From contig CM068841.1 of the NCBI GenBank assembly GCA_028554795.2, forward strand, positions 27,087,721-27,151,720: a DNA stretch of 64,000 bases. The letters are read 5' to 3'. Below, in pieces: positions 4,480 through 63,259 of this stretch. The notes below the pieces were generated by a model. That model had not been told where the DNA came from. It was given only the letters and a program-made list of their open reading frames with translations, and ran no database searches. Both the position numbers and the translations under genes were made by a program. The first letter of the stretch is position 1. Every line of letters begins with the position of its first letter. This DNA is from Sinohyriopsis cumingii. Lineage: Eukaryota; Mollusca; Bivalvia; Unionida; Unionidae.

Positions 4480-5696
4480 CTGAAATAGGTGGTAATGGTA
4501 TAGAATATTTCTTTCCAAAAAAGATTTCTGTGAATGGAATAGATGTTTTGTGTTTATCTGAGTACATGATCATCTGCATGGCCATATTTTCCAATGAGTC
4601 TGGATAATTAGGAACCTATTACACTAAAAATATCTCAGATTTTCTACCTGAAGTTTAGGTCATTTTATTCTTTGTATTATTGCTCACTTTGTATCAATCA
4701 ATTTTTCACTTAACATAAAGCAGACATTGAGGATATACCAAAATTTCCTGAGAATAAGACTTGTTTAATCTTGAAGGACAATCTGATCATTTCCTCACAT
4801 CCGATGACTTTCTAACCTAGTTTTTAAGAACACAAAGATTTTCAGTTTACAATTTTAACATGAGGCCCAAGCTTGCATGATATCACTAACCTGACATAAT
4901 TTAACAGCTGACCATTTCACAAAGTAGCTTGGTGGTATTGATAAACACATTCTATGTAAACTATATCCAAAACTTTATATCATAGATCCATTTCAATTAG
5001 GCTACTACTAGTCTGATTAAAAAAATCTTTCCACAAATAAATGTATAATCTTATCTGTAATCAGAGTCACCCAAGTGTTTTAAAAGCTAAGTTTATCCAT
5101 GACACTTTAATTTGTTGTCACGAGACATTGAATTATAACTCACAGTTGGGGGGGGGGGGCATGGGTTTCTTTATTCTTGGTAATTAAATCTGTAAATATT
5201 TCAGGAGAAAAGCATTCTGAGGTATGTTTTTATCAAAACCCACTTATATAATTAAAATATATAAATTACAAATAATTTAAAAGTACTGGCAATGAATGTT
5301 TATGTATACAGCCCATAATATAATACACAATTCATTTGACAGCATACACACGACAAATGTCTCAGGTACTTGAAATATTTCTTTCTACTCAGAATCATGA
5401 TATCTGCTCTGTAGACAATGACTTTCACATAAGCATCTCAAAATGGAGCTAATGTACCAAATTCTTTTTTCAACACCTTTGTATCAACATGCATTACAGT
5501 ACCACTCATTTGATACAGAGTGAAAAAGGGATGGCATGTTTACATGTAACTGACTATGCTGGTAAATCAGTTGTGGAACAATCTATTCTTGATACTTGGC
5601 TGAACATTTATGGAAGCCATTGCATTTCATTTTAAAATGTCAACAACAAAAACAAAATTTTTTAAAAAATGGATGTAAATAGAGATCAGAGTATTC

Positions 5697-5951
5697 TGTT
5701 GTTGTTGTTGTTGTTATTGGGTTTAATGCCATTTTTCAGCACACGATAGGCTATGTTTGGCAGCCAGTATTAATGGTGGAGGAAGAACCCGAGAAAACTC
5801 CAGGAAGAACTTCCGACCCACGAGAAACTACTGGCAAGCTTTCTCACATACCCACATTGGCCGAATCCTACTCGAACCCACGCAGACAGAGGTGAGATGG
5901 CAGTGATCCGTAACGGAAAGTGCTTTAGACCACACGGCCACTCAGAGCCCC
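5697..5951 (-). mobile_element. SINE-A copy 2
   Basis: A full-length minus-oriented copy. It starts with the (GTT)n tail complement at 5697, then gggtttaatgccatttttca, the body, and ends in the tRNA-like head complement (cactcagagcccc). The B-box complement reads actcgaaccca. Confidence 0.85.
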
Positions 5952-6140
5952 TTCAGAGTATTCTTCTGGCATGCTTGTGGCAAACATTTTCACTTTGTCA
6001 CACACTTCTGGTAAGTTTGTGGCAAACATTTACACGTTGTCACACACTTCTGGCATGCTTGTGGCAAACATTTACACTTTTTCAAACACTTCTGGAACGC
6101 TTGTGGCAAACATTTACATCTTGTCCCACACTTCTAGCAA
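5952..6140. repeat. 45-bp tandem repeat, about four copies
   Basis: The unit resembles cttctggcatgcttgtggca followed by aacatttacactttgtcaca and cact. Four diverged copies abut the SINE-A head. The plus-strand reading frame across it (5897-6184) reflects repeat periodicity (45 is divisible by three) and is not a gene. Confidence 0.8.
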
Positions 6141-47322: not shown

Positions 47323-47925
47323 ACATGCAAATTAGGTTTCACGTGGTCGGCTGAGTGGCGAAATGTACCTTTAGACTTAAATCCTAGTTTTCTTTACCTA
47401 TGTAGTAGGTTGAAATTAGCTGTACCAGTGTTCTGTTGGAAAACCAAGTTTTATTTTCTACCTTTCTTTTTTATATTTAAGAATCAATATTTTGCTCACA
47501 TATGAATGTTGCAAACGATGATGTCAATAAAAATATGTATTTGTTTAACTTTTTCGGTAACCTTGATTTCAATTTTAAGGTATAAAATTGGTTAGAGTTA
47601 ATAATTTATTAGCAACATTAGAAGTAAGGCAGGTTTCAGTGCAACGAGAGTCTGAAAGTACATTGTACTGGTGTATCTTTGTATATAAATTTTGTAAAGG
47701 ACAAAAACCAATAGTACAATTTTTCTATGCAAATTCAAAATCATCTTTTAACTTTTATGTTCTAAAAATGCTGACTACAAATCCAAATAATTTACACAAA
47801 AATGCATTCACAACTTTTCCAATACAATGATAATTCTATTTCTTATATTTTAATATGAGATATATGAGTGGTCTATTTTGCTAAATGTATACGATGAATA
47901 AGCTTCTTTGACCCCTTCAGCTCAT

Positions 47926-48357
47926 TTGTATAACACTAGAGAACTGGATGATTTGTATAACACTAGAGAACTGGATGATTTGTATAACACTAGAGAACTG
48001 GATGATTTGTATAACACTAGAGAACTGGATGATTTGTATAACACTAGAGAACTGGATGATTTGTATAACACTAGAGAACTGGATGATTTGTATAACACTA
48101 GAGAACTGGATGATTTGTATAACACTAGAGAACTGGATGATTTGTATAACACTAGAGAACTGGATGATTTGTATAACACTAGAGAACTGGATGATTTGTA
48201 TAACACTAGAGAACTGGATGATTTGTATAACACTAGAGAACTGGATGATTTGTATAACACTAGAGAACTGGATGATTTGTATAACACTAGAGAACTGGAT
48301 GATTTGTATAACACTAGAGAACTGGATGATTTGTATAACACTAGAGAACTGGATGAC
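47926..48357. repeat. 27-bp minisatellite, 16 copies, no differences seen
   Basis: The unit is gatgatttgtataacactag then agaactg. Sixteen units (432 bp) show no differences by eye. Because 27 is a multiple of three and the unit lacks stops in several frames, long open frames appear on both strands (plus: periodic LYNTRELDD). These are a by-product. Homogeneity implies very recent expansion or gene conversion. The copy number may be mis-assembled. Confidence 0.95.
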
Positions 48358-50466: not shown

Positions 50467-50830
50467 TTAAATCAGTAAGGGCTTGCGGGGTCTGTGATCG
50501 CTGCAGTGTCCGCAACGCTTCAACGAGACAAGATGACCGCAAATTGATCCACCCATCCGTGTTTGTACAGGCATAATCATATGAAAGAACGACAGACGAA
50601 TCTGTCGTCCACCTGTACCCCGGGATAAATAATTAACCACTTCGATTGGCGGTGCAAGTCCATACGAGTCAAAATACAAACTATGTTGGGGTGTGACAAC
50701 GTATGCGATCCAGTGAATGCCAGGACATGTTGATGAATCCAAATTAGCGATGCCCGTTTCGCGTCTGCAAGGCATGGCACCATTGCTGAAAGTCCATTTC
50801 GCCTAAAAACACCACCTAAATGTTTGATCT
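50467..50830 (-). pseudogene. Adenain-like cysteine protease relic (Polinton/adintovirus type)
   Basis: On the minus strand the longest frame (50775-50467) reads GIANLDSSTCPGIHWIAYVV with the catalytic His in GIHW. FDSYGLAPPIEVVNYL follows (the Asp position and the FDS.G..PP signature), and near the end GGSICGHLVSL with the nucleophile Cys in CGHL. These are the landmarks of C5-family proteases of adenoviruses and Polintons, which mature the virion. Upstream bases 50776-50830 show traces of the N-terminal helix out of frame. The C-terminal helix is replaced by an unrelated frame ending at 50467, so it is broken. It is the third of three decayed minus-strand genes. Confidence 0.7.
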
Positions 50831-52612: not shown

Positions 52613-52761
52613 GTCACTATCAGCACTTTTATTCCTGTAAACACTTTTTGTTACCATAATACCATCCCCATGTAAGCATATGGACACTTTCAACACCGGA
52701 TTTCTGGTATGTCACCAAATCGCCCCAAATCGCTTGACTCATGTGCTAATACTGATTCCCG

Positions 52762-52767
52762 TACGTC
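52762..52767. other. Target-site duplication, left
   Basis: TACGTC immediately before the left terminus AGTATATGGGG. The same six bases follow the right terminus at 63254-63259. Six-base duplications are the rule for Polinton/Maverick integration. Confidence 0.85.
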
Positions 52768-52779
52768 AGTATATGGGGT

Positions 52780-53040
52780 CACCCTAGCGTCAAGGGGACT
52801 TACCATGCAAAAACAGTCGATGCACTCTGGCGTCAAGGGGAATTTAACATGGGAAATTTTAACATGGATGGAACTGTAGAGCGTCAAGGGGAATTGAACA
52901 TGGAAATTGAACAGGACCGGTACTTTAACGTCAATGGGACTTTAACGTTAAAATATGGGGTCTGCACTTTGTCGTCAATGGAAATTGAACATGGGAATGT
53001 CACCTGGATGTCAATGGGAATTGAACTTTGGGTGATGTCA
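52780..53040. repeat. Subterminal short direct repeats, left arm
   Basis: Six or so variants of gtcaaggggaatttaacatg spaced 30-50 bp apart. Such subterminal arrays may serve as origin or protein-binding sites for end-initiated replication, which is inference. The open frame 52849-53043 is a by-product. Confidence 0.8.
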
Positions 53041-53586
53041 TGAGGTTTATAGGGTCAAAACATTTTATAGGGATTTTAATGTATTTGTAAGGACAAAGGG
53101 TAGATAGGGACAAACATACAAATACACATTTAAACACACAGAAAAGACGACAGAAATGTTCTAAAACAAACCTCACAGAGAGAATAGAGGCTCAAAAAAG
53201 AAAAGTCTATTGTATGGGTTCAAAACATTTATTCAAGTATATACATGGGCTCTCTGGCCTGTGCTTTGGTCTAAGCACTATCCATTTAATACATAAACAT
53301 TTCTACATCAAACAGACCTATTTACTAGTTATTTAGTTCTTGGCTCTAGTAAACCTGTTTACATTTAATGTTCATTTATAAGAAAAAGCTAACACAAAAC
53401 AAGTAACATGCAATCAAATAGGACAAAGTTCATGTTTCTCTCTCTCTCTATTCGTCTCACACGTTGTTAAAAATCTGGTCAGCTAGCACTTGTGTCCCAG
53501 CGTAGATATTTCCCATCACTTAATCCGTTTCATTCATAAATCGGCTGTTATATCCATCGTGCTAGGTACACTTATCAGTAAGCAGA
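53041..53586 (-). other. Left-arm 3' untranslated region of the N-domain gene
   Basis: No coding sense. On the minus strand a canonical AATAAA lies at 53233-53228, 354 nt after the N-domain stop codon, and is the likely poly(A) signal. The mirror copy is at 62785-62790. Confidence 0.55.
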
Positions 53587-54105
53587 TCAAGTGCAGTCAT
53601 CGTCTTCTTCCCATGGAGGTACAATGTATACCATATGAATGGTTACTTTTCCTTCGTTGATGTCAAATTTTCCTCTCATCGACTGCACGTCTTCAATAGC
53701 CCTCAAAAGTTTGGACGAAGTTATTTCTGCAGGTGTGCTAAATCCGAGACATACAGGTGAGTTCAAACTGTCGTGATACATAGATAGGCTCAAACGACCT
53801 CGATCTTTGACTTGGCAATGACATTTGAGTTCCTCTAACAGTGACTCAAGTAGGTCCGTAATGAAACCTGCTACTTCCTCGGCTGAAATGTCAGATGCGA
53901 AGTCTCTAAATTTCACCGTGTAGGTGTAAGTTGTCGTTCTAAATTTTCTTGAGGTCGCTGTCTGAGTCATTTCGATGCTAAAATACTCCTGTAGGTCTAC
54001 TGAATCCTTTCCCTTCTTGGACGCACTTTGCTGTGACGGCATGGTAGTGAAAGAGGTCAGTGATGTTTGTTCCTTCTCTTTTTTCATCTGCGTAGAGTGA
54101 TTCAT
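53587..54105 (-). CDS. Stand-alone paralogue of the polymerase N-terminal domain (left copy)
   Basis: 172 residues from the ATG at 54105 (an upstream in-frame TTG is not needed). After a Lys/Ser/Thr-rich leader, residues from about 55 to 165 (DLQEYFSIE, SRKFRTTTYTYTVKFRDF, LSMYHDSLNSPVCLGFS, KFDINEGKVTIHMVYI) align with polymerase residues about 60-187 (SRKFRTTAYTYTVKFKDF, LSIDHDGLKSPVWIEFS, KFDITDGKATLKMAHV). It ends in an acidic tail (PPWEEDDDCT). A TATA box (TATAAAAAGG, 54164-54155) lies 50 nt upstream. Function unknown; a replication accessory or terminal-protein-like role is possible. The same strand order as the polymerase suggests co-evolution with it. Confidence 0.75.
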   Translation of the reverse strand: MNHSTQMKKEKEQTSLTSFTTMPSQQSASKKGKDSVDLQEYFSIEMTQTATSRKFRTTTYTYTVKFRDFASDISAEEVAGFITDLLESLLEELKCHCQVKDRGRLSLSMYHDSLNSPVCLGFSTPAEITSSKLLRAIEDVQSMRGKFDINEGKVTIHMVYIVPPWEEDDDCT

Positions 54106-54345
54106 CTTTCTCGTTGCTTGTCCTCGCAATGAAGTGTCGTTCTTGGAAGTCGTCCCTTTTTATACTGGGTGATATCAGTATGTCCATAAGGTAAAGTTTT
54201 GTGGTCTGGAAGTTTCACTGGTTGCACGTAGTTTGTCATGGCGTTAGTACATAAATAACTAAGATGTGTTACTGCATTGGTGATGTGATAGTGAGGCAAA
54301 GAATCACACCCGAGTTTCTCGTTGGACTTGAGTCTTACGCTCTAT
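54106..54345 (-). pseudogene. Relic of a second polymerase C-terminus carrying the TATA box of the N-domain gene
   Basis: The minus frame reads SLPHYHITNAV, then VKLPDHKTLPYGHTDITQYK. It parallels the true polymerase end RLPTHHIVSRP...VRLPNHFTLPYSHINIGQHI. At DNA level cagtataaaaagggacgact matches cagcatataaaaaaggacaa. The TATA box of the N-domain gene is therefore embedded in former polymerase coding sequence. Right after the real polymerase stop, ATGAATCCCTTCAAACAG resembles the N-domain start ATGAATCACTCTACGCAG, which shows a tandem duplication of the unit polymerase end + N-domain start. Confidence 0.65.
54155..54164 (-). promoter_or_regulatory. TATA box of the N-domain gene (left copy)
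   Basis: TATAAAAAGG on the minus strand, 50 nt before the ATG at 54105. The mirror copy is at 61854-61863. Confidence 0.65.
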
Positions 54346-54374
54346 ACTTGCTGTTTGAAGGGATTCATTTTTTC

Positions 54375-55373
54375 TCAATTGGTCTTAGTAGTGACAATGA
54401 ACTGTTGGTCTTGGACGTTGTCCTTTTTTATATGCTGACCAATATTGATGTGACTGTACGGCAAAGTAAAGTGGTTGGGAAGTCGTACTCGCTTCTGGTA
54501 CACGATTTGATAGACTTTTTCCAAGGGTCGACTGACGATGTGGTGAGTGGGTAAACGTACAATCTTGTTCGGCTGGTAGGTGGTCACTTTAAAGTTTGCA
54601 TCCTCTCCAGACTGCAAGGTTTCTTTCAATACGCCAAAGTTGACCACACGATTGGCACGATAATTCAGAGTCAATCCTTTCACTTTACACTCTGTGTGCA
54701 CTTCTCCTTGTGGGTCCCGGTATTCGTAGCCGTAATTTTTAGGACCGCCACTCGCGAAACTTAGAATCTTGTCGTCAGGATGTTCGTCTGTCCAGGCTCC
54801 TAAACGGTCTCCTTCGATGTTAGGGTGTTGCTGACCTGGTCGATCGATGTAGATGCAACTGTCCGTGTCAAAGTACAGGACGCGATCCCCTAACAGTTCT
54901 AAAGCTTTGTACAATTTTAAGCGAGCATGAGCTGTCACGTAAGCCGCAATGATGACATTTCCAAATGGGTCGGCTTGTACAAAGTCCAGATCTTCTTCGT
55001 AATTGACCAAGATCAAATCCTCGCGAACGACGTCCACGTGTTTGATGAATTTGGTTTTGTCGTGAATCATCTGGAAGTAGCGGGAAGGTTCTGTCAAATA
55101 TTTCGTCTTGGGTAAACACGGTCGTTGTGCCATTTTTCCCCACAAGCAATTTAACATCACTTTGGCAAACGATCGCCTGCCTTCGTTTTTCTCGATGTGG
55201 TCTAAAGTGATGCCTTCTTGTTCATAGTATTTCTCTTTGAATTGTATTTGGTCTTCGGGAGTGTGGCACCAGGAAGGATAGCCGCTGGCTTCTTGCTTCA
55301 GTTTCAAAAAGGCATCCACGTAGTCTGCGAAAATGCCTTTCTGAGTAGGGTCACCCTTGTGGTATTGTTGTGT
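54375..55373 (-). CDS. polB: Protein-primed family B DNA polymerase, C-terminal part (after frameshift)
   Basis: Open from just after a TAG (55376-55374) to 54375, in the +1 frame relative to the upstream part. It has palm motif B (KVMLNCLWGKMAQRP) and the catalytic motif C YFDTDS (two metal-binding aspartates), then thumb-like sequence ending VTTKTN. The preceding ADYVDAFLKLKQEASGYP segment is the usual run-up to motif B in Polinton-type polymerases. An in-frame GTG at 55319 is not a real start. The last 297 codons lie in the terminal repeat and are copied on the right side. Together with the upstream ORF the gene would be about 1,360 codons. I describe the two parts separately and do not join them. 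Confidence 0.85.
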   Translation of the reverse strand, partial: TQQYHKGDPTQKGIFADYVDAFLKLKQEASGYPSWCHTPEDQIQFKEKYYEQEGITLDHIEKNEGRRSFAKVMLNCLWGKMAQRPCLPKTKYLTEPSRYFQMIHDKTKFIKHVDVVREDLILVNYEEDLDFVQADPFGNVIIAAYVTAHARLKLYKALELLGDRVLYFDTDSCIYIDRPGQQHPNIEGDRLGAWTDEHPDDKILSFASGGPKNYGYEYRDPQGEVHTECKVKGLTLNYRANRVVNFGVLKETLQSGEDANFKVTTYQPNKIVRLPTHHIVSRPLEKVYQIVYQKRVRLPNHFTLPYSHINIGQHIKKDNVQDQQFIVTTKTN

Positions 55374-58300
55374 CTAAGGGAAAGTGGTAAATTTCGTACA
55401 CTTCTAACAGTTGGTATCCCATGTCCATAGCTTTGAACAATTCTACGCTGACCCAGGTTCCCGTCAAGGCCCGTTCTTCCTGGATGCGCTGACAAGGCTG
55501 ATCTTGGTTGCACGTTTCGGCACAAGTACGGCACAAGGGAAACATCAGTTTGCCTTGACAATGGTGAGGTAAGACGGGATGGTATAGGTTCGTGGGAGGC
55601 AAAACTTTGCACTTGATCAAGCCTTCGTATTGTCGAATGTTGACCAGGTCGATGTGTTCCGTCAGCAATCGCGGGTGCCCTGTAGGAAAGTGACAATATT
55701 TGCACACGTAGGGATACAGCGAACACACATCCAAGTATTTGATTTCTTCTCCTTTCTCTTCGTCGGCTTGGTACAGCAAACAGATGGCATTGGTCCTTCC
55801 TCCGTACAAACTATCCCTCGGGTTCAGGGGGTCCATCAGCTTGTAACTTTCCACGACACGTTTAAACTCGGGATCGATTTTCAAACGGTGATCGTATTCG
55901 TGTTCCCACATTTCCACCACTTGGTATCCTTGCTGTTCTAACTTTAGGCGTCGCTGACAAGTGTCCTGGTACAGGTCTTCCATGGTCCGTTGTAAAAACT
56001 GATTTTTAGTGTCACGGTCAGGGTAGCAGACGGGACATCCGTGAAATAAGCAACCGTTAAACTCATACACGATCTTGGGGTTTTTTAAGTCCCAGCCATC
56101 GACCGAATACGTTCCGATGGTCCTTTCGCCTCCTCCGTTGCGGGCATGCTGAATCCATTTGCCTTCCTTGTCGCACAAGTAATGTAACCAGCGTAGGGCT
56201 TTGACCGAGTATTGACGCTTGACATAGTTGGTCGTTTGAGGACTGATGACAGCCACGGTCTTTTGAGGCATGAATCGTTGGCGGTACACTAAGGAACACG
56301 CTTTGGCAATGGTGCAAGTTTCTTTCAAAGGATCGACCCCTCCGTGTTCCATGAACAGTTCTCGAAATTTTCCACAGCAACGTCGTAAAATGTCCACGTC
56401 GGAACGACAATACTTTAACATTTCTTCCTGAAAGTCGAAGGGGTCAGAGGCATGAGCCTGGTACCAAGCGTAGAAATCTTCTCGTTGTTCGGTACGCATG
56501 TTGTCCGGGTCGTAATAGTGAGCCTCAGGCAAATGGGGTAGAACGGCATGTTGATTGGCTTCCGTATTGAAAAAGTGAGGAAAATAACCTTTAGCCATTT
56601 CTGTCATTCCAAACGTTTTAGGCATTCGACTCAAAGGCATGGCCAAGTAACTCATCGAATCTTTAAACTGCACTTGTCCCACTTGCATGAAAATGATTTT
56701 GGCTCCGTTCAAAGTGACTTTAGGACGTTCGGTGCAATGTTCCGTATAGTACCTCAAAAGAAACTGTCCATCGTATCCGGAGTAATTGTGAGCCATCACT
56801 GTGGCATGGCGATGACAATCTCGGTAACGTTCGATGTCCTCTTTGCTCCATGTCTTGTCGATGGGGTCTAAGACCCATTTGGCAAAATCGTCTAGCGTCT
56901 TTGGTCCTCGAAAGATTTTTTCACGCCCTCCAGGAATTTTGCTGCAGTGAGGGCAATAACTGAAGATAGGTTCTTGAATACACTTCTCGCACGCTCGATG
57001 AGCCACGCAGAAATTAGGAATGTGAATGCCAGTCTCTTGCATGCATTCGAAATCGAAAAAGATGAAATTGCCTTTCTTCTTCTTCTTGTGACCGTCATCT
57101 TCCTCTTGTTGGGGTTGGTATTTTTGTATGTAACATTGATGTTCCAAGTCCACGATATGGTGACAAATGTGACATTTTTTCTTTCCTGAACATACGTGTG
57201 CCTTGGCACTATTGGTACGTATGCCTTGTCCACACGCGGGGCAGAATCTCAGCAGTTGACAAGCGCATTTCTTCTGTGAACCTTGTGTTTTCAAATGTTG
57301 TTGGTAACAGGTAGGACTGACAAACGTGCGCTGACAAGCTGGACAATGCACTGATTCTTGTCCTTCGTCCAGACAGGGTTGAGAGGCCAAACATCCTGAG
57401 CATTTCGATCCACAATGTTTGTGTTGTTCTCGATTTTTATGGCCATAGTCACATTTCTCACAATAATAAACATATCCCAGGAATCCAGTGATACTGGTAA
57501 TGGTATCGAAATGTTCATCGTGATGATAAAGGTGAATGTATTTTCCATCCTTAAAATCTTGGCCTCGAAACAACAGAGACCCACGCACTTCTTGAGGGTG
57601 CACTTTCAAGGTGTAGCGTGGAGCTAGGACATCTTGCAATTTTTGCATTTCAGGAATGCCACAGGGTGTGTCTTTGGACAGGCCAGCTTGTTGCAACAGG
57701 AGTTCTGCTTCGTTTCGTTGTTTGGTTCGGTTCGATTTTCGAATGTTCTCCCAGGTTCTTTTCCATTCTACCGTGTCGTTCTTGTTGGCATAGGTTAGTC
57801 CCACCACGATGGCTCGGGCTAAGCACATCTGGTCTTGAGGGTTGTTAATTTGGACGAGACTCTTTTTGGTGCTGCGAAGGTCGTTCACCAATAAGACCTT
57901 TTTGCGTCCTGTCCCTTGAGGAAGAGAGACGTGAGCCATTTTCAGTGTGGCTTTACCATCGGTGATGTCAAACTTGTCATTGGATTGTTGCACCTGTTGT
58001 ATCTTGTCCATGACTTTGGAAGGGGTCAGTTCTGCGGGTCTGCTAAACTCGATCCAAACAGGGGATTTCAAACCGTCGTGATCTATGGATAGTGTCAAGC
58101 GATCGTCTTCTTTGGGTTGACATTGTCGCTTGAGTGCGGTGAGCAAAGAATCCCACATCTCGGTGATAAACACTTCTGCTTTCTCCAAGGGTACGTCGGC
58201 CTTGAAATCTTTAAACTTCACCGTGTAGGTGTAAGCCGTGGTTCTAAATTTTCTAGAGGAGCGCTTTTCCGTCTCTCGAATGGAATAGTACTTTTCAGGG

Positions 58301-58479
58301 TTGACTAAGGGTGGTGAACTTGGTTTAGAGGGTTCGGATTCTGGTTCACTCATGTCCTCTTCAAAATCACTGGCATGAATTTGTGCCAAGATTTCGGCCC
58401 TGGTACGAGGCGATAGATCACGTTTCTGCCTCTTACTTTCTTCTTCTTCTTTCTTCTCGAATGAATGGGATCGTTTCAT
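55351..58479 (-). CDS. polB: Protein-primed family B DNA polymerase, N-terminal part with exonuclease and motif A
   Basis: 1042 codons from ATG 58479 to TGA 55351. Residues 1-60 are charged; 60-190 form the N-domain also found alone in the repeats. 205-330 is a region with QINNPQDQMCLARAIVVGL typical of this polymerase group; 340-450 is a Cys/His-rich zinc-binding section. The 3'-5' exonuclease follows: Exo I FDFE (475-478), Exo II HNYSGYD (564-570), Exo III YCRSD (690-694). 805-820 is the YEFNGCLFHGCPVCYP insert known from Polinton polymerases; 893-898 is GGRTNA; motif A DVCSLYP is at 917-923. It stops before motif B because of a one-base frameshift within 55354-55376. Such enzymes copy linear DNA from a terminal protein primer. 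No other copy is available to tell mutation from error. Confidence 0.9.
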   Translation of the reverse strand: MKRSHSFEKKEEEESKRQKRDLSPRTRAEILAQIHASDFEEDMSEPESEPSKPSSPPLVNPEKYYSIRETEKRSSRKFRTTAYTYTVKFKDFKADVPLEKAEVFITEMWDSLLTALKRQCQPKEDDRLTLSIDHDGLKSPVWIEFSRPAELTPSKVMDKIQQVQQSNDKFDITDGKATLKMAHVSLPQGTGRKKVLLVNDLRSTKKSLVQINNPQDQMCLARAIVVGLTYANKNDTVEWKRTWENIRKSNRTKQRNEAELLLQQAGLSKDTPCGIPEMQKLQDVLAPRYTLKVHPQEVRGSLLFRGQDFKDGKYIHLYHHDEHFDTITSITGFLGYVYYCEKCDYGHKNREQHKHCGSKCSGCLASQPCLDEGQESVHCPACQRTFVSPTCYQQHLKTQGSQKKCACQLLRFCPACGQGIRTNSAKAHVCSGKKKCHICHHIVDLEHQCYIQKYQPQQEEDDGHKKKKKGNFIFFDFECMQETGIHIPNFCVAHRACEKCIQEPIFSYCPHCSKIPGGREKIFRGPKTLDDFAKWVLDPIDKTWSKEDIERYRDCHRHATVMAHNYSGYDGQFLLRYYTEHCTERPKVTLNGAKIIFMQVGQVQFKDSMSYLAMPLSRMPKTFGMTEMAKGYFPHFFNTEANQHAVLPHLPEAHYYDPDNMRTEQREDFYAWYQAHASDPFDFQEEMLKYCRSDVDILRRCCGKFRELFMEHGGVDPLKETCTIAKACSLVYRQRFMPQKTVAVISPQTTNYVKRQYSVKALRWLHYLCDKEGKWIQHARNGGGERTIGTYSVDGWDLKNPKIVYEFNGCLFHGCPVCYPDRDTKNQFLQRTMEDLYQDTCQRRLKLEQQGYQVVEMWEHEYDHRLKIDPEFKRVVESYKLMDPLNPRDSLYGGRTNAICLLYQADEEKGEEIKYLDVCSLYPYVCKYCHFPTGHPRLLTEHIDLVNIRQYEGLIKCKVLPPTNLYHPVLPHHCQGKLMFPLCRTCAETCNQDQPCQRIQEERALTGTWVSVELFKAMDMGYQLLEVYEIYHFPLDTTIPQG

Positions 58480-58612
58480 CTTGAGTGCAAAACGTCAAAT
58501 GACTCAAGTTCAAACACCATAGACTAATTTATAGTCATGGCAAACCAGCGTATATAAAAAGTTTGTGTCTTGTCCTTTCACTATTCATTTCACTCTCAAA
58601 CCGAGGAGAACG
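58480..58612. promoter_or_regulatory. Divergent promoter between polymerase and zinc-knuckle gene
   Basis: 133 bp. Plus side: TATATAAAAA at 58551-58560, 53 nt before the zinc-knuckle ATG (58613). Minus side: TATAAAT at 58533-58527, 48 nt before the polymerase ATG. TGACTCA (58499-58505) is an AP-1-like site. Spacing suits RNA polymerase II core promoters. Confidence 0.65.
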
Positions 58613-59105
58613 ATGGAAGAGACTACCCAGATGGAACGTTTCGTCAGAACTTTGCGAGGGGTCATTAGAAAATTCTCTTCAGACCAGCCTACGGACTACT
58701 CTCCTTCCTTTCGAGATAAGAGTCAGGATACTTGCTATATCTGTCAGAAGAAAGGGCATTGGTCTTCAGAGTGTCCAGACCGTCAAAAAAGAAAAAAAAA
58801 CAGGGGCTAAAAAAGACAAAAGTCAAGATACCTGTTATTATTGTAAAGAAAAAGGACATTGGTCTCCAGATTGCCCAAAAAAGAAACAAGAGGAGTCAGA
58901 AGAAAAGAAGGATTCTTCAGAAGAAGAGAGGGATTCTTCGGAAGAAGAGAGGGATTCTTCGAAAGAAGAGAGGGATTCTTCAGAGGAAGAAGAGGAAGAA
59001 AGAAGACAATTCTATTTAAAAGAAGCAAAGAAACAGGAGAAGAAAAGAAGAAGGGAAGAAAATGAGGAAAAAACGGTGAAGAAATTCAAAAAACAGAGAG
59101 ACTAA
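58613..59105 (+). CDS. Double CCHC zinc-knuckle protein with acidic repeats (frame break in an A-tract)
   Basis: Starts at ATG 58613 (METTQMERF-like opening: MEETTQMERFVRTLRG). The first zinc knuckle is CYICQKKGHWSSEC (C-x2-C-x4-H-x4-C). The frame ends at TAA 58808-58810. One base over, the second frame continues from the A-rich run 58784-58800 with a second knuckle CYYCKEKGHWSPDC. Then follow a 7-residue repeat (DSSEEER), a Lys/Arg-rich tail and a stop at 59103. The break sits exactly at A6-G-A9, a typical slippage site, so it could be mutation, sequencing error or programmed slippage. CCHC knuckles bind single-stranded nucleic acid; a role as a DNA-binding or nucleocapsid-like protein is inference. 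Confidence 0.75.
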
Positions 59106-59340
59106 ACAAGGAGAAAGAAGAAGTCAATGAACTTTTAATTAAAGTGTTCTGTGGTGAATTGTGAATTGGATTGTAAAAAATGGATAAAAGAATACATGAA
59201 TGATATAAGGTAAGTGTCTTTGAGTTTTGATTTTAAAATAAGAAGCTACACTCACGCACTCATACACAGACACGTACTATAAGGGTAAAATGGGTGGGGT
59301 TTATTTTTGAGTTATTGGCAAATTGAAATTGTATTTCTTT
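59106..59340. other. Short spacer, no gene
   Basis: About 235 bp between the stop of the zinc-knuckle gene and the histone-type stem-loop of the oppositely oriented coiled-coil gene; AT-rich. Nothing recognisable beyond ordinary 3' UTR. Confidence 0.5.
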
Positions 59341-59355
59341 TCGAGAAATGTGGGT

Positions 59356-59371
59356 GGCCCTGAAAAGGGCC
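59356..59371 (-). terminator. Histone-type 3' stem-loop of the coiled-coil gene
   Basis: On the minus strand AAAAAGGCCCTTTTCAGG then GCCACCCACA. This is a 6-bp stem with the TTTC loop, A-rich 5' flank and ACCCA 3' flank, matching the replication-dependent histone mRNA consensus. It begins 25 nt after the stop codon (59397), as in histone genes. The downstream sequence TTTCTCGAAAAGAAATAC is a plausible histone downstream (U7-pairing) element. Confidence 0.8.
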
Positions 59372-59396
59372 TTTTTATTTTGGTGTAGGGGTGAGT

Positions 59397-59957
59397 TTAA
59401 CCAATCAACTTTAACTGCCTTAAGCCTTTGCCACGGCCAAGGCCTACTTCTGATGATTGGGTTGAAATCACTAAGGGTGGTACGACAGGCTTAGTCACAG
59501 GGTTGGCGTGTTTAGCTCGGGAAGGTCGTATTCTCTTCGGTCGTGATAAAGAAGTCTGATACATTTGTTTCAGACTTCTTAACTCCGCTAAAATGTCCAA
59601 CAGTACCGTAGCCGTTTGATTTTCACCCTCTTGTTTCTTTGCTGCTACTTCTTCTTGCTGTTGTTGCTGTTGTTTTTTTCTTACCTCTTCTTGTTGCTGT
59701 TGCTGTTGCTGTAGGAGAAAAGCTTGTTCCGCTTCCTTTTGTCGTTGCATAAATTTCTCCAATTCTTCTTTCTGTCTCTGTCTAAAATTCTCCACTTGCG
59801 GTAATGAAGAAGGTAACGAAGGTTCCGGAACAAATTCTTGCGAGGTAAGAAAATCCACAAAATCCCAATGTACCTCTTCTGAAAGTAAGTCTGGGTTCCC
59901 TTGGGCAGTCTCCCCTGCTGGTGCACCCCAATGGATCGTTTTCTGAGTTTCCGTCAT
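59397..59957 (-). CDS. Coiled-coil, glutamine-rich protein of unknown function
   Basis: 186 codons from ATG 59957. Acidic N-terminus (about 1-50, with HWDFVDFLTSQEF). A long predicted coiled coil lies at about 52-130, with NFRQRQKEELEKFMQRQKEA, two Gln runs (Q7-8), and LLDILAELRSLKQMY as a heptad-like end. A basic C-terminus follows (SRPKRIRPSRAKHA, and GLGRGKGLRQLK). I recognise no family; it is not a histone. TATA-type promoter at 60005-60012 and histone-type stem-loop 25 nt past the stop. It is transcribed away from its divergent partner at 60177. A DNA-binding or scaffolding role fits its charge distribution, but this is a guess. Confidence 0.75.
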   Translation of the reverse strand: MTETQKTIHWGAPAGETAQGNPDLLSEEVHWDFVDFLTSQEFVPEPSLPSSLPQVENFRQRQKEELEKFMQRQKEAEQAFLLQQQQQQQEEVRKKQQQQQQEEVAAKKQEGENQTATVLLDILAELRSLKQMYQTSLSRPKRIRPSRAKHANPVTKPVVPPLVISTQSSEVGLGRGKGLRQLKLIG

Positions 59958-60176
59958 GTTGAATCACTGTCTCATAGATTGACTGCACACAAGCGCTAGC
60001 GAATCTATATAGACCAACTGACGTCACAGACTACTCTCTTCGGATTATATGCGGGCTGACTGAATTTTGTAACGCGTGTTTGGATTGGTGAATGAACTCA
60101 ATCCGTTTCAATCCTGCCTCTACCTATAAATAAGCGCAGTTCAGTGCATTGATTCACTTGTTCTCGTTGCTTCAAG
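59958..60176. promoter_or_regulatory. Divergent promoter of the histone-like gene pair
   Basis: 219 bp. Minus side: TATATAG at 60011-60005, preceded upstream by a perfect CRE palindrome TGACGTCA (60019-60026). Plus side: TATAAATA at 60125-60132, 45 nt before ATG 60177. Centre: GGATTGG (inverted CCAAT box, ATTGG at 60084-60088). CCAAT plus TATA in a short shared spacer is the layout of divergent histone gene pairs. Confidence 0.65.
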
Positions 60177-60410
60177 ATGTGGACCGATGTGCAATCTTCT
60201 ACGCTTGTGTCTTCCATGATGTTCCGGACGGACATATCCATGTATGTCCGATCCAAGTGGACCGTTGTCCACAGGACAAACACCAGCCTGTGGATACGTA
60301 GGATCTACGTAGAAAGACAAGGATGCCTGAAAAGAGTGCTGATTTACGGACCAACAGTGAGACGTAGCCTAAGGACAAGAACAAGACCAATGCGGTGCCA
60401 TTTATGTTAA
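60177..60410 (+). CDS. Small basic protein of unknown function
   Basis: 77 codons from ATG 60177 (leader cttcaagATG) to TAA 60410. Early part MWTDVQSSTLVSSMMFRTDI, then a Trp/Arg-rich middle (RSKWTVVHRTN) and a strongly basic end (VRRSLRTRTRPMRCHLC). Net charge is clearly positive, as expected for a DNA-condensing core-like peptide, but there is no family I recognise and no histone fold. Its reality is supported by the TATA box at the right distance and a histone-type stem-loop 24 nt beyond the stop, mirroring the coiled-coil gene. A frame-disrupted longer gene is possible. Confidence 0.55.
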   Translation: MWTDVQSSTLVSSMMFRTDISMYVRSKWTVVHRTNTSLWIRRIYVERQGCLKRVLIYGPTVRRSLRTRTRPMRCHLC

Positions 60411-60434
60411 TGAATACATTAACATAAACCCAAA

Positions 60435-60450
60435 GGCCCTTTTCAGGGCC
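60435..60450 (+). terminator. Histone-type 3' stem-loop of the small basic gene
   Basis: Plus strand ACCCAAAGGCCCTTTTCAGG then GCCAGCCATA: CCAAAG 5' flank, perfect 6-bp stem, TTTC loop and an AGCCA 3' flank. It starts 24 nt after the stop. The following TTTCTCGAAAAGAGATAG resembles a histone downstream element and is nearly the same as that at the other stem-loop. Confidence 0.8.
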
Positions 60451-60489
60451 AGCCATATTTCTCGAAAAGAGATAGCCTTTCCATTGCCT

Positions 60490-60555
60490 ACCCCTTTTTT
60501 AAAATTTAAATTTAAATTTAAATTTAAATTTAAAAAAATTTAAAAAAAAAAAATC
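60490..60555. repeat. (AAATTT)n and poly(A) tract
   Basis: Self-complementary AAATTT repeats followed by A-runs; marks the edge between the gene cassette and the internal subterminal-like block. Confidence 0.9.
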
Positions 60556-60574
60556 CCAAAAGCCTAAACTCTAT

Positions 60575-60745
60575 TCCCCATGTTAATTTCCCTTGTCCCT
60601 AGACAGACCCAAACTCTATGTTAAATTCCCATTGTCCCTAAAGTGACCCACGATTTCTCTCCATGTTAAATTTCCATTGTCCCTAATCTGACCCAGGGGT
60701 CTTTGTAATGCTAAGTCCCATTGTCCCTAATGTGCCCCACTTAAC
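60575..60745. repeat. Internal subterminal-like repeats, probably a former right end
   Basis: Four variants whose complement is gggacaatgggaatttaaca tgg. They resemble the true subterminal motif gtcaatgggaattgaacatg and have the orientation expected of a right end. They abut the inner edge of the right repeat at 60750. Confidence 0.7.
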
Positions 60746-60749
60746 TACT

Positions 60750-61643
60750 TGCCACACTCCCGAAGACCAAATACAATTCAAAGAGAAATACTATGAACAA
60801 GAAGGCATCACTTTAGACCACATCGAGAAAAACGAAGGCAGGCGATCGTTTGCCAAAGTGATGTTAAATTGCTTGTGGGGAAAAATGGCACAACGACCGT
60901 GTTTACCCAAGACGAAATATTTGACAGAACCTTCCCGCTACTTCCAGATGATTCACGACAAAACCAAATTCATCAAACACGTGGACGTCGTTCGCGAGGA
61001 TTTGATCTTGGTCAATTACGAAGAAGATCTGGACTTTGTACAAGCCGACCCATTTGGAAATGTCATCATTGCGGCTTACGTGACAGCTCATGCTCGCTTA
61101 AAATTGTACAAAGCTTTAGAACTGTTAGGGGATCGCGTCCTGTACTTTGACACGGACAGTTGCATCTACATCGATCGACCAGGTCAGCAACACCCTAACA
61201 TCGAAGGAGACCGTTTAGGAGCCTGGACAGACGAACATCCTGACGACAAGATTCTAAGTTTCGCGAGTGGCGGTCCTAAAAATTACGGCTACGAATACCG
61301 GGACCCACAAGGAGAAGTGCACACAGAGTGTAAAGTGAAAGGATTGACTCTGAATTATCGTGCCAATCGTGTGGTCAACTTTGGCGTATTGAAAGAAACC
61401 TTGCAGTCTGGAGAGGATGCAAACTTTAAAGTGACCACCTACCAGCCGAACAAGATTGTACGTTTACCCACTCACCACATCGTCAGTCGACCCTTGGAAA
61501 AAGTCTATCAAATCGTGTACCAGAAGCGAGTACGACTTCCCAACCACTTTACTTTGCCGTACAGTCACATCAATATTGGTCAGCATATAAAAAAGGACAA
61601 CGTCCAAGACCAACAGTTCATTGTCACTACTAAGACCAATTGA
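60750..61643 (+). pseudogene. Polymerase C-terminal fragment (right-repeat copy)
   Basis: 297 codons matching the end of the polymerase, including motif B and YFDTDS, but without exonuclease or motif A. The open frame is prolonged upstream to 60708 through unrelated repeat sequence. It cannot be an active polymerase alone. It exists because the left arm was copied to the right. Confidence 0.9.
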
Positions 61644-61672
61644 GAAAAAATGAATCCCTTCAAACAGCAAGT

Positions 61673-61912
61673 ATAGAGCGTAAGACTCAAGTCCAACGAG
61701 AAACTCGGGTGTGATTCTTTGCCTCACTATCACATCACCAATGCAGTAACACATCTTAGTTATTTATGTACTAACGCCATGACAAACTACGTGCAACCAG
61801 TGAAACTTCCAGACCACAAAACTTTACCTTATGGACATACTGATATCACCCAGTATAAAAAGGGACGACTTCCAAGAACGACACTTCATTGCGAGGACAA
61901 GCAACGAGAAAG
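61673..61912 (+). pseudogene. Polymerase C-terminal relic and TATA box (right copy)
   Basis: Mirror of 54106-54345. TATAAAAAGG at 61854-61863 precedes the right N-domain gene. Confidence 0.6.
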
Positions 61913-62431
61913 ATGAATCACTCTACGCAGATGAAAAAAGAGAAGGAACAAACATCACTGACCTCTTTCACTACCATGCCGTCACAGCAAAGTGCGTCCA
62001 AGAAGGGAAAGGATTCAGTAGACCTACAGGAGTATTTTAGCATCGAAATGACTCAGACAGCGACCTCAAGAAAATTTAGAACGACAACTTACACCTACAC
62101 GGTGAAATTTAGAGACTTCGCGTCTGACATTTCAGCCGAGGAAGTAGCAGGTTTCATTACGGACCTACTTGAGTCACTGTTAGAGGAACTCAAATGTCAT
62201 TGCCAAGTCAAAGATCGAGGTCGTTTGAGCCTATCTATGTATCACGACAGTTTGAACTCACCTGTATGTCTCGGATTTAGCACACCTGCAGAAATAACTT
62301 CGTCCAAACTTTTGAGGGCTATTGAAGACGTGCAGTCGATGAGAGGAAAATTTGACATCAACGAAGGAAAAGTAACCATTCATATGGTATACATTGTACC
62401 TCCATGGGAAGAAGACGATGACTGCACTTGA
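61913..62431 (+). CDS. Stand-alone paralogue of the polymerase N-terminal domain (right copy)
   Basis: 172 codons from ATG 61913, with the same translation as the left copy over its full length. The element therefore has two copies of this gene, each transcribed outward towards the nearer end. AATAAA at 62785-62790 is the likely poly(A) signal. Being in the terminal repeat, the gene would be kept homogeneous by whatever mechanism keeps the ends equal. Confidence 0.75.
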   Translation: MNHSTQMKKEKEQTSLTSFTTMPSQQSASKKGKDSVDLQEYFSIEMTQTATSRKFRTTTYTYTVKFRDFASDISAEEVAGFITDLLESLLEELKCHCQVKDRGRLSLSMYHDSLNSPVCLGFSTPAEITSSKLLRAIEDVQSMRGKFDINEGKVTIHMVYIVPPWEEDDDCT

Positions 62432-62980
62432 TCTGCTTACTGATAAGTGTACCTAGCACGATGGATATAACAGCCGATTTATGAATGAAACGGATTAAGT
62501 GATGGGAAATATCTACGCTGGGACACAAGTGCTAGCTGACCAGATTTTTAACAACGTGTGAGACGAATAGAGAGAGAGAGAAACATGAACTTTGTCCTAT
62601 TTGATTGCATGTTACTTGTTTTGTGTTAGCTTTTTCTTATAAATGAACATTAAATGTAAACAGGTTTACTAGAGCCAAGAACTAAATAACTAGTAAATAG
62701 GTCTGTTTGATGTAGAAATGTTTATGTATTAAATGGATAGTGCTTAGACCAAAGCACAGGCCAGAGAGCCCATGTATATACTTGAATAAATGTTTTGAAC
62801 CCATACAATAGACTTTTCTTTTTTGAGCCTCTATTCTCTCTGTGAGGTTTGTTTTAGAACATTTCTGTCGTCTTTTCTGTGTGTTTAAATGTGTATTTGT
62901 ATGTTTGTCCCTATCTACCCTTTGTCCTTACAAATACATTAAAATCCCTATAAAATGTTTTGACCCTATAAACCTCATGA
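62432..62980 (+). other. Right-arm 3' untranslated region of the N-domain gene
   Basis: No coding sense; mirror of 53041-53586, with a short GA-rich tract at 62569-62580. Confidence 0.55.
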
Positions 62981-63240
62981 CATCACCCAAAGTTCAATTC
63001 CCATTGACATCCAGGTGACATTCCCATGTTCAATTTCCATTGACGACAAAGTGCAGACCCCATATTTTAACGTTAAAGTCCCATTGACGTTAAAGTACCG
63101 GTCCTGTTCAATTTCCATGTTCAATTCCCCTTGACGCTCTACAGTTCCATCCATGTTAAAATTTCCCATGTTAAATTCCCCTTGACGCCAGAGTGCATCG
63201 ACTGTTTTTGCATGGTAAGTCCCCTTGACGCTAGGGTGAC
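62981..63240. repeat. Subterminal short repeats, right arm
   Basis: Mirror of 52780-53040. The minus-strand frame 63277-62975 across it is a repeat artefact. Confidence 0.8.
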
Positions 63241-63253
63241 CCCATATACTACT

Positions 63254-63259
63254 TACGTC
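63254..63259. other. Target-site duplication, right
   Basis: TACGTC directly after the terminal ACT (63251-63253), equal to 52762-52767. Confidence 0.85.

Follow-up and report, generated by a model that had tools for sequence, protein, structure and literature searches.

The window analysed here, a stretch of 64,000 nucleotides from the bivalve Sinohyriopsis cumingii (contig CM068841.1, positions 27,087,721 to 27,151,720), contained a mobile element resembling Polintons and adintoviruses. Two small, divergently oriented genes of this element, p186 and p77, were each followed by a stem-loop of the type found at the end of replication-dependent histone mRNAs, and by a purine block resembling the histone downstream element (HDE). 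The element and the features of this gene pair were located as follows.

52768..63253, no strand assigned: Polinton/adintovirus-like element, rearranged, with a right end that repeats the left end in inverted orientation
59397..59957, minus strand: p186, gene of a 186-residue protein, coiled-coil-like by eye, with a basic stretch near the C-terminus
59356..59371, minus strand: histone-type stem-loop of p186 (pattern search and Rfam)
59336..59342, minus strand: HDE-like GAAAAGA, 13 nt past the p186 stem-loop (sequence reading, Rfam and conservation)
60177..60410, plus strand: p77, gene of a 77-residue arginine-rich protein
60435..60450, plus strand: histone-type stem-loop of p77 (pattern search and Rfam)
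60464..60470, plus strand: HDE-like GAAAAGA, 13 nt past the p77 stem-loop, with AAAGAG overlapping the end of the block
59958..60176, no strand assigned: divergent promoter region common to p186 and p77, with a TATA box toward p186, the cyclic-AMP response element (CRE) TGACGTCA, an inverted CCAAT box (GATTGG), and TATAAA toward p77

The pattern search found two copies of GGCCCTTTTCAGGGCC in the window, one on each strand (59356–59371, minus; 60435–60450, plus), and no further copy with up to three mismatches. The stop codons ended at 59397 on the minus strand for p186 and at 60410 on the plus strand for p77, with gaps of 25 and 24 nt between stop and hairpin, respectively. In 100 dinucleotide shuffles of the window, the mean number of matches was 0.15, and two matches were reached in one shuffle. 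When the window was scanned with Rfam, the Histone3 model (RF00032, gathering score 34) matched the p186 hairpin at 59332–59376 on the minus strand with 41.2 bits (E 9.6e-9) and the p77 hairpin at 60430–60475 on the plus strand with 35.6 bits (E 1.2e-6). Both matches spanned model positions 1–46, which is the whole model of hairpin and downstream element, and no other Rfam family reached its gathering score in the 64 kb. The first-pass annotation had described canonical histone-mRNA stem-loops, present once per strand at 25 and 24 nt past the stops of two divergent genes, with particular hairpin flanks and a common downstream TTTCTCGAAAAGA, and had judged two perfect copies improbable by chance; each of these statements agreed with the sequence, the frame ends, the shuffles, and the full-model matches.

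The host genome (2.9 Gb) was searched with RF00032, and the best 75 of 589,472 candidates were scored, all of them above the cut-off. All 75 places were fetched as loci L001–L075, comprising 292,634 bases. The 76 hairpins of L001–L048 were located after p77 (33), p186 (24), and the two forms of a further gene, the coil gene, which were named coil129 (129 residues; 11 hairpins) and coil204 (204 residues; 7 hairpins), and one hairpin, in L025, had no assigned gene. The 27 hairpins of L049–L075 were located after p186 (14), p77 (6), coil204 (5), and coil129 (2). Altogether, an element gene on the same strand preceded 102 of the 103 hairpins by at most 400 nt, and no hairpin fell inside a gene match. 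That all 75 places belonged to element genes is partly an effect of the ranking: the best-scoring hairpins are those of the element, and the host may have others. A hairpin with at most one mismatch combined with AAAAG was found at 130 sites in the bases of L001–L075 and at none in the same bases read backwards. The window and these loci together contained 99 exact hairpins, of which 96 had AAAAGA and 80 had AAAAGAG at a distance of no more than 34 nt.

Partner genes that had not been picked by their own hairpin were considered separately. The 25 p186 partners carried the exact hairpin in 15 cases, one mismatch in 6, two mismatches in 2, three mismatches in 1, and no hairpin in 1; the partner with three mismatches was a paralogue with 48.7% identity in L035. 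Ten of the 11 p77 partners had the exact hairpin, and the other had one mismatch. The first-pass annotation had named the loss of the hairpin from conserved genes as one observation that would refute it, and the opposite was seen in these relatives. Mean pairwise divergence was obtained from an alignment anchored on the hairpin without gaps, in which length changes inflate the upstream values, and from which the L035 paralogue and L027 were left out. For the p186 partners (n = 23), the loop gave a divergence of 0.053, ACCCA 0.051, and the block 13–22 nt past the loop 0.039, with values of 0.191–0.633 in other stretches. For the p77 partners (n = 11), the loop and the HDE-like block gave 0.011 and 0.018, the bases between them 0.148–0.178, and those farther downstream 0.196–0.392; the six bases before the loop were invariant (0.000), and bases −20 to −7 gave 0.109. 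Judged by these profiles, the hairpin loop and the purine block are islands of conservation. A second hairpin predicted around the purine block was rejected, because its positions were often unpaired in 59 distinct anchored sequences, with hardly any paired change. The L035 paralogue (5455–5994, minus strand) was followed by its three-mismatch hairpin and CTCAAAAAGAGAT.

The p77 protein has a calculated isoelectric point of 11.5 and contains 13 arginine residues. These properties suggest DNA binding for p77 only, where the earlier annotation had regarded both proteins as DNA-binding-like. In the first 59 codons of p77, nonsynonymous divergence (dN) was 0.078 and synonymous divergence (dS) was 0.774, with a median dN/dS of 0.11 in 243 pairs; of the 27 copies available, the four that contained stops were excluded, as were pairs whose dS did not exceed 0.02. 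By these rates, the p77 protein is under purifying selection while its silent sites are far diverged. The dN/dS of p186 was 0.51. Database searches gave two homologues of p77, with 77–78% identity, and 20 of p186, on short contigs (longest 925–2286 bases). Homologues P0013 of p186 and P0029 of p77 extended beyond the usual stop, with tails that corresponded, as judged by eye, to the translated frame of hairpin and HDE. A kinship of p186 to histone H4, suggested by a GLGRGKG sequence similar to the H4 tail, was set down as coincidence. The intergenic region between the two genes was 208–222 nt long in 33 copies, the window included. TATAAA toward p77 and the inverted CCAAT box were present in all 33, the CRE in 30, and the TATA box toward p186 in 29.

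The set of two genes given in the first-pass annotation was too small, since the coil gene in both forms and two more genes, g122 and g123, were also followed by hairpins. In the loci, which were selected by hairpin, an exact or one-mismatch hairpin was located behind 44 of 48 p186 copies, 39 of 39 p77 copies, 7 of 7 coil204 copies, and 8 of 8 coil129 copies. The variant AGCCCTTTTCAGGGCT was located behind 12 of 17 g122 copies and 8 of 10 g123 copies, hairpins that played no part in locus selection. The outermost pair of this variant is A-U in place of G-C, so that the stem was kept by a change on both sides, and GAAAAGA-type blocks came after it. The coil gene shared strand and neighbourhood with g123 and g122 frames in L017, and with a protease-like and a capsid-like frame in L032. 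The p77, p186, coil, g122, and g123 proteins are small and may have core or virion roles, with p77 as a putative DNA-condensing core protein.

Other genes of the element lacked the hairpin where examined. In the single element of the window, no histone-type hairpin (8–9 mismatches) was located behind the polymerase end, the zinc-knuckle frame, whose end was placed at 59105 by eye, or a 172-residue frame. None (at least six mismatches) was located behind the protease-like frame in seven loci, the capsid-like frame in L032 and its fragments in L033, or g168 in three rows. Several loci held more than one copy of the hairpin genes. L011 and L013 each contained two p186 and two p77 matches within 6 kb, and L016 contained two coil-gene hairpins within 6 kb; we read these as neighbouring, nested, or rearranged copies. 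In L039 (4068–4795), a p77 hairpin on the plus strand and a coil-gene hairpin on the minus strand faced each other about 0.7 kb apart, a layout which suggests that a fuller element had the p186–p77 pair followed by structural-side genes on the opposite strand.

A search of the host genome with the Pfam Histone family, in which 150 of 662 candidates were scored, revealed a metazoan-type histone array on many contigs, arranged in tandem units of about 8.3 kb. One host stretch, L076, contained H4, H2B, H2A, and H1 frames, named by protein reading, and the end of H3. The H3, H4, H2B, and H2A genes each had an RF00032 match of 35.9–39.4 bits, and the 75 scored places included none of the four. The host hairpin was GGCCCTTTTTAGGGCC in H3 and H4, GGCCCTTTTAAGGGCC in H2A, and in H2B GGCCCTTTTCAGGGCC, identical to that of the element; three loop variants (TTTT, TTTC, and TTTA) occurred across the four genes of this unit. 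The H3, H4, H2B, and H2A ends followed the pattern GGCCCTTTT(T/T/C/A)AGGGCC and then GAAAAG, which lay 13 nt past the loop in H3, H4, and H2B, as in the element, and 14 nt past it in H2A. The sequence CTAGAAAAGA of host H3, H4, and H2B was also present in some element copies, and complementarity to the host U7 would concern CTAGAAAAGA and CTCGAAAAGAG. The comparison with the host's own histone 3′ ends, proposed in the earlier annotation, gave the same hairpin and the same GAAAAG block at the same spacing. In mouse, AAAGAG forms the purine core of the HDE and pairs with CUCUUU of U7, according to PMC7026596.

The hairpin genes of the element are probably processed at their 3′ ends like replication-dependent histone mRNAs, by SLBP and U7, without poly(A) and in a manner linked to S phase; we assign this reading a probability of about 0.85, on the grounds of sequence. 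The first-pass annotation had proposed S-phase-coupled, non-polyadenylated mRNAs, an interpretation that the sequence comparisons support. The p186 and p77 genes would be transcribed divergently from the one conserved promoter region. Each pre-mRNA would contain the histone stem-loop 24–25 nt past the stop and the purine block 13 nt past the loop. With SLBP on this loop and the U7 small nuclear ribonucleoprotein (snRNP) paired to the purine block, CPSF73 would cleave the RNA between the two, in the order of events given in PMC7026596. The resulting mRNA would lack a poly(A) tail and would be synthesised, translated, and kept stable chiefly during DNA replication. Related elements would treat the coil gene, g122, and g123 alike, and their polymerase, protease-like, and capsid-like genes lack the hairpin where examined. 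It is also likely, with somewhat less confidence, that the elements form a family of animal virus-like elements with a "histone regulon", in which small core- or virion-side genes use the host histone mRNA signal while the polymerase and other genes use different ends, so that the hairpin genes would be made mainly during DNA copying.

Several results weigh against histone-type processing of these genes. The 75 loci were selected by hairpin and not gene first, and the p186 copy of L027 had no hairpin. When ten loci were scanned with Rfam, the g122 and g123 hairpin variants remained below the gathering score. Stops were located inside the gene in 9 of 32 cases for p186 and in 4 of 27 for p77, and an E2F-type site was absent from the promoter region in all 33 copies. 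No relatives, and no hairpins of the patterns tried, were found in viral contig collections. In the host, neither the Rfam U7 model nor, at E 0.001, the SLBP RNA-binding domain gave a match, and none of the control genomes matched either; a U7 pattern search gave 87 matches in the host and 76 in the control, which is the level of chance, and two of nine U7 candidates that were read resembled one dispersed repeat and were rejected. In the 200 nt past the hairpin, 8 of 31 p186 and 8 of 35 p77 copies contained the poly(A) signal A(A/T)TAAA; 7 of the p186 copies and none of the p77 copies had it in the interval from stop to hairpin. Rows without a hairpin anchor or with less than 200 nt downstream were left out. 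Of 200-nt windows drawn at random from these loci, a fraction of 0.225 contained the signal. Hexamers near the hairpins were at background, neither enriched nor depleted, and the idea that they were scarce there was dropped. Within 300 nt of the stop, a hexamer was present in 25 of 48 p186, 7 of 18 p77, 3 of 7 coil204, and 5 of 8 coil129 copies, and p186 of the window had one AATAAA between stop and loop and another 50 nt past the loop.

These hexamers bear on the alternative that SLBP-bound hairpins aid stability or translation, while most of the mature mRNAs are polyadenylated elsewhere and show little S-phase coupling. This would fit a background level of hexamers without depletion and the AATAAA on both sides of the p186 loop, but no hexamer position was common to most copies. 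In addition, the HDE-like block was as conserved as the loop and stood at the spacing of the host histones, and loop binding alone would not need the block; we consider this alternative unlikely. Hexamers within 300 nt of the stop were found in 2 of 17 g122 and 2 of 10 g123 copies. In five of seven loci, the protease-like frame had a hexamer about 195–209 nt beyond the match, a candidate for its poly(A) signal, and the polymerase end of the window had none within 300 nt. By these counts, hexamers do not cleanly sort the two groups of genes.

It is hardly credible that host histone 3′ ends were captured by the element and are now non-functional passengers. A host origin is possible, as the host H2B carries the identical 16-mer, but the loop and block were near-invariant while the silent sites of p77 reached a dS of 0.77, hairpins were present on several genes, two of them (g122 and g123) with the paired change, and by eye the flanks in the element were unlike those of the host. 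A site acting at the DNA level, in packaging, replication, or recombination, and palindromic by accident, is very improbable as well. In its favour, the hairpin is a perfect inverted repeat close to the ends of genes, and replication of the element would be expected to start at its termini; the sense orientation of 102 of 103 hairpins behind an element gene, with none inside one, argues against it, as do loop letters equal to those of host histone loops and a purine block that is not palindromic and stands at the host spacing.

The 3′ ends of the element matched those of animal histone mRNAs (RF00032; SLBP, U7 snRNP, HDE) in the 6-bp stem, the UUUC-type loop, ACCCA, the purine block 13 nt on, and the location near the stop. 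To our knowledge, such ends mark replication-dependent histone genes and almost nothing else. In the element they are carried by non-histone genes of a mobile virus-like element, and the divergent arrangement of p186 and p77 differs from the host histone unit (L076), in which the genes are on one strand. The element shares with Polintons/Mavericks and adintoviruses the viral-type polymerase, terminal inverted repeats, and 6-bp target duplication, and L032 has a protease-like and a capsid-like frame next to the coil gene that may be further common features. Histone-type 3′ ends on several genes set the element apart. Adomaviruses, which are animal DNA viruses from the same wide grouping, also touch histone biology through their "Histoid" genes (PMC11071296). 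These genes are reported to encode a protein with remote similarity to histones, whereas in the element the mRNA end is histone-like. The accessible part of that paper contained no description of histone-type 3′ ends of virus genes, and that of PMC4028283 contained neither "stem-loop" nor "histone". No description of such ends in Polintons, adintoviruses, or other viruses was found in the open-licence literature, which was covered in part, and the first-pass annotation had likewise known of no Polinton relative with them.

If the processing proposed here is correct, the histone-type ending of genes would be a strategy undescribed for a DNA virus, as far as the literature searched shows. The histone mRNA machinery could then be taken over as a set by a mobile element, and a virus would have a simple means of producing small proteins, basic or structural, in step with DNA replication. 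It would also explain why such transcripts may escape poly(A)-selected RNA libraries. Tests of SLBP and U7 specificity could make use of the naturally varying loops and purine blocks, among them the A-U outer pair beside the host's own hairpins.

The remaining features of the element in the window were as follows.

52762..52767, no strand assigned: left target-site duplication TACGTC (6 bp)
63254..63259, no strand assigned: right target-site duplication TACGTC (6 bp)
55351..58479, minus strand: type-B DNA polymerase (PolB), main frame of 1042 residues (Pfam DNA_pol_B_2, 5.6e-34)
58613..58810, plus strand: CCHC zinc-knuckle frame (Pfam zf-CCHC, 4.4e-7)

The zinc-knuckle frame, p186, and p77 were located between the polymerase and the right repeat. 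The element had a PolB of the viral/organellar class, and terminal inverted repeats with a 6-bp target duplication, which are a mark of Polintons. The inverted repeats (52760–55268 and 63257–60750, about 2.5 kb) were 99.88% identical over 2509 aligned bases. Their length results from the right repeat being a copy of the left end including the polymerase C-terminus (52768–55268 and 60750–63253), and an inverted-copy end of this kind recalls a snap-back defective genome. Read from outside, the right terminus was AGTAGTATATGGG (63241–63253) and the left was AGTATATGGG, with one additional AGT at the right. An extra terminal AGT is what sliding-back in protein-primed replication would give.

The PolB copy of the window looks interrupted, as the main frame ended at 55351 and the C-terminal part was located in a different frame (54375–55157). 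Seven relatives (P0021–P0027) were found, and the best of them, an uncharacterised protein of the oyster Saccostrea echinata, had 34% identity over 87% of the first 480 residues. The 172-residue frame was present in each inverted repeat (53587–54105, minus; 61913–62431, plus) and had 69–70% DNA identity over 245 bases with the N-terminal part of the polymerase (58015–58259). It resembles a duplicated polymerase N-terminal domain.

No retrovirus-like integrase was noticed among the open reading frames of at least 60 residues in the window, of which eight were scanned with Pfam; no search aimed at it was made in related elements. The half of the element with the protease-like and capsid-like frames, known from L032, was absent from the window's copy. 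The protease-like frame of L032, which lies outside the window's element, matched the pS273R protease in the PDB (E 4.8e-5) and no Pfam family at 0.01. The 323-residue frame of L032 matched neither Pfam nor PDB entries, and we take it, from recall, to resemble a double jelly-roll capsid protein. To the left of the insertion, short frames on the minus strand (50467–50783) resembled the L032 protease-like frame by eye and may belong to an older, decayed element. Farther left, positions 47924–48356 formed a perfect tandem array with a 54-bp period.

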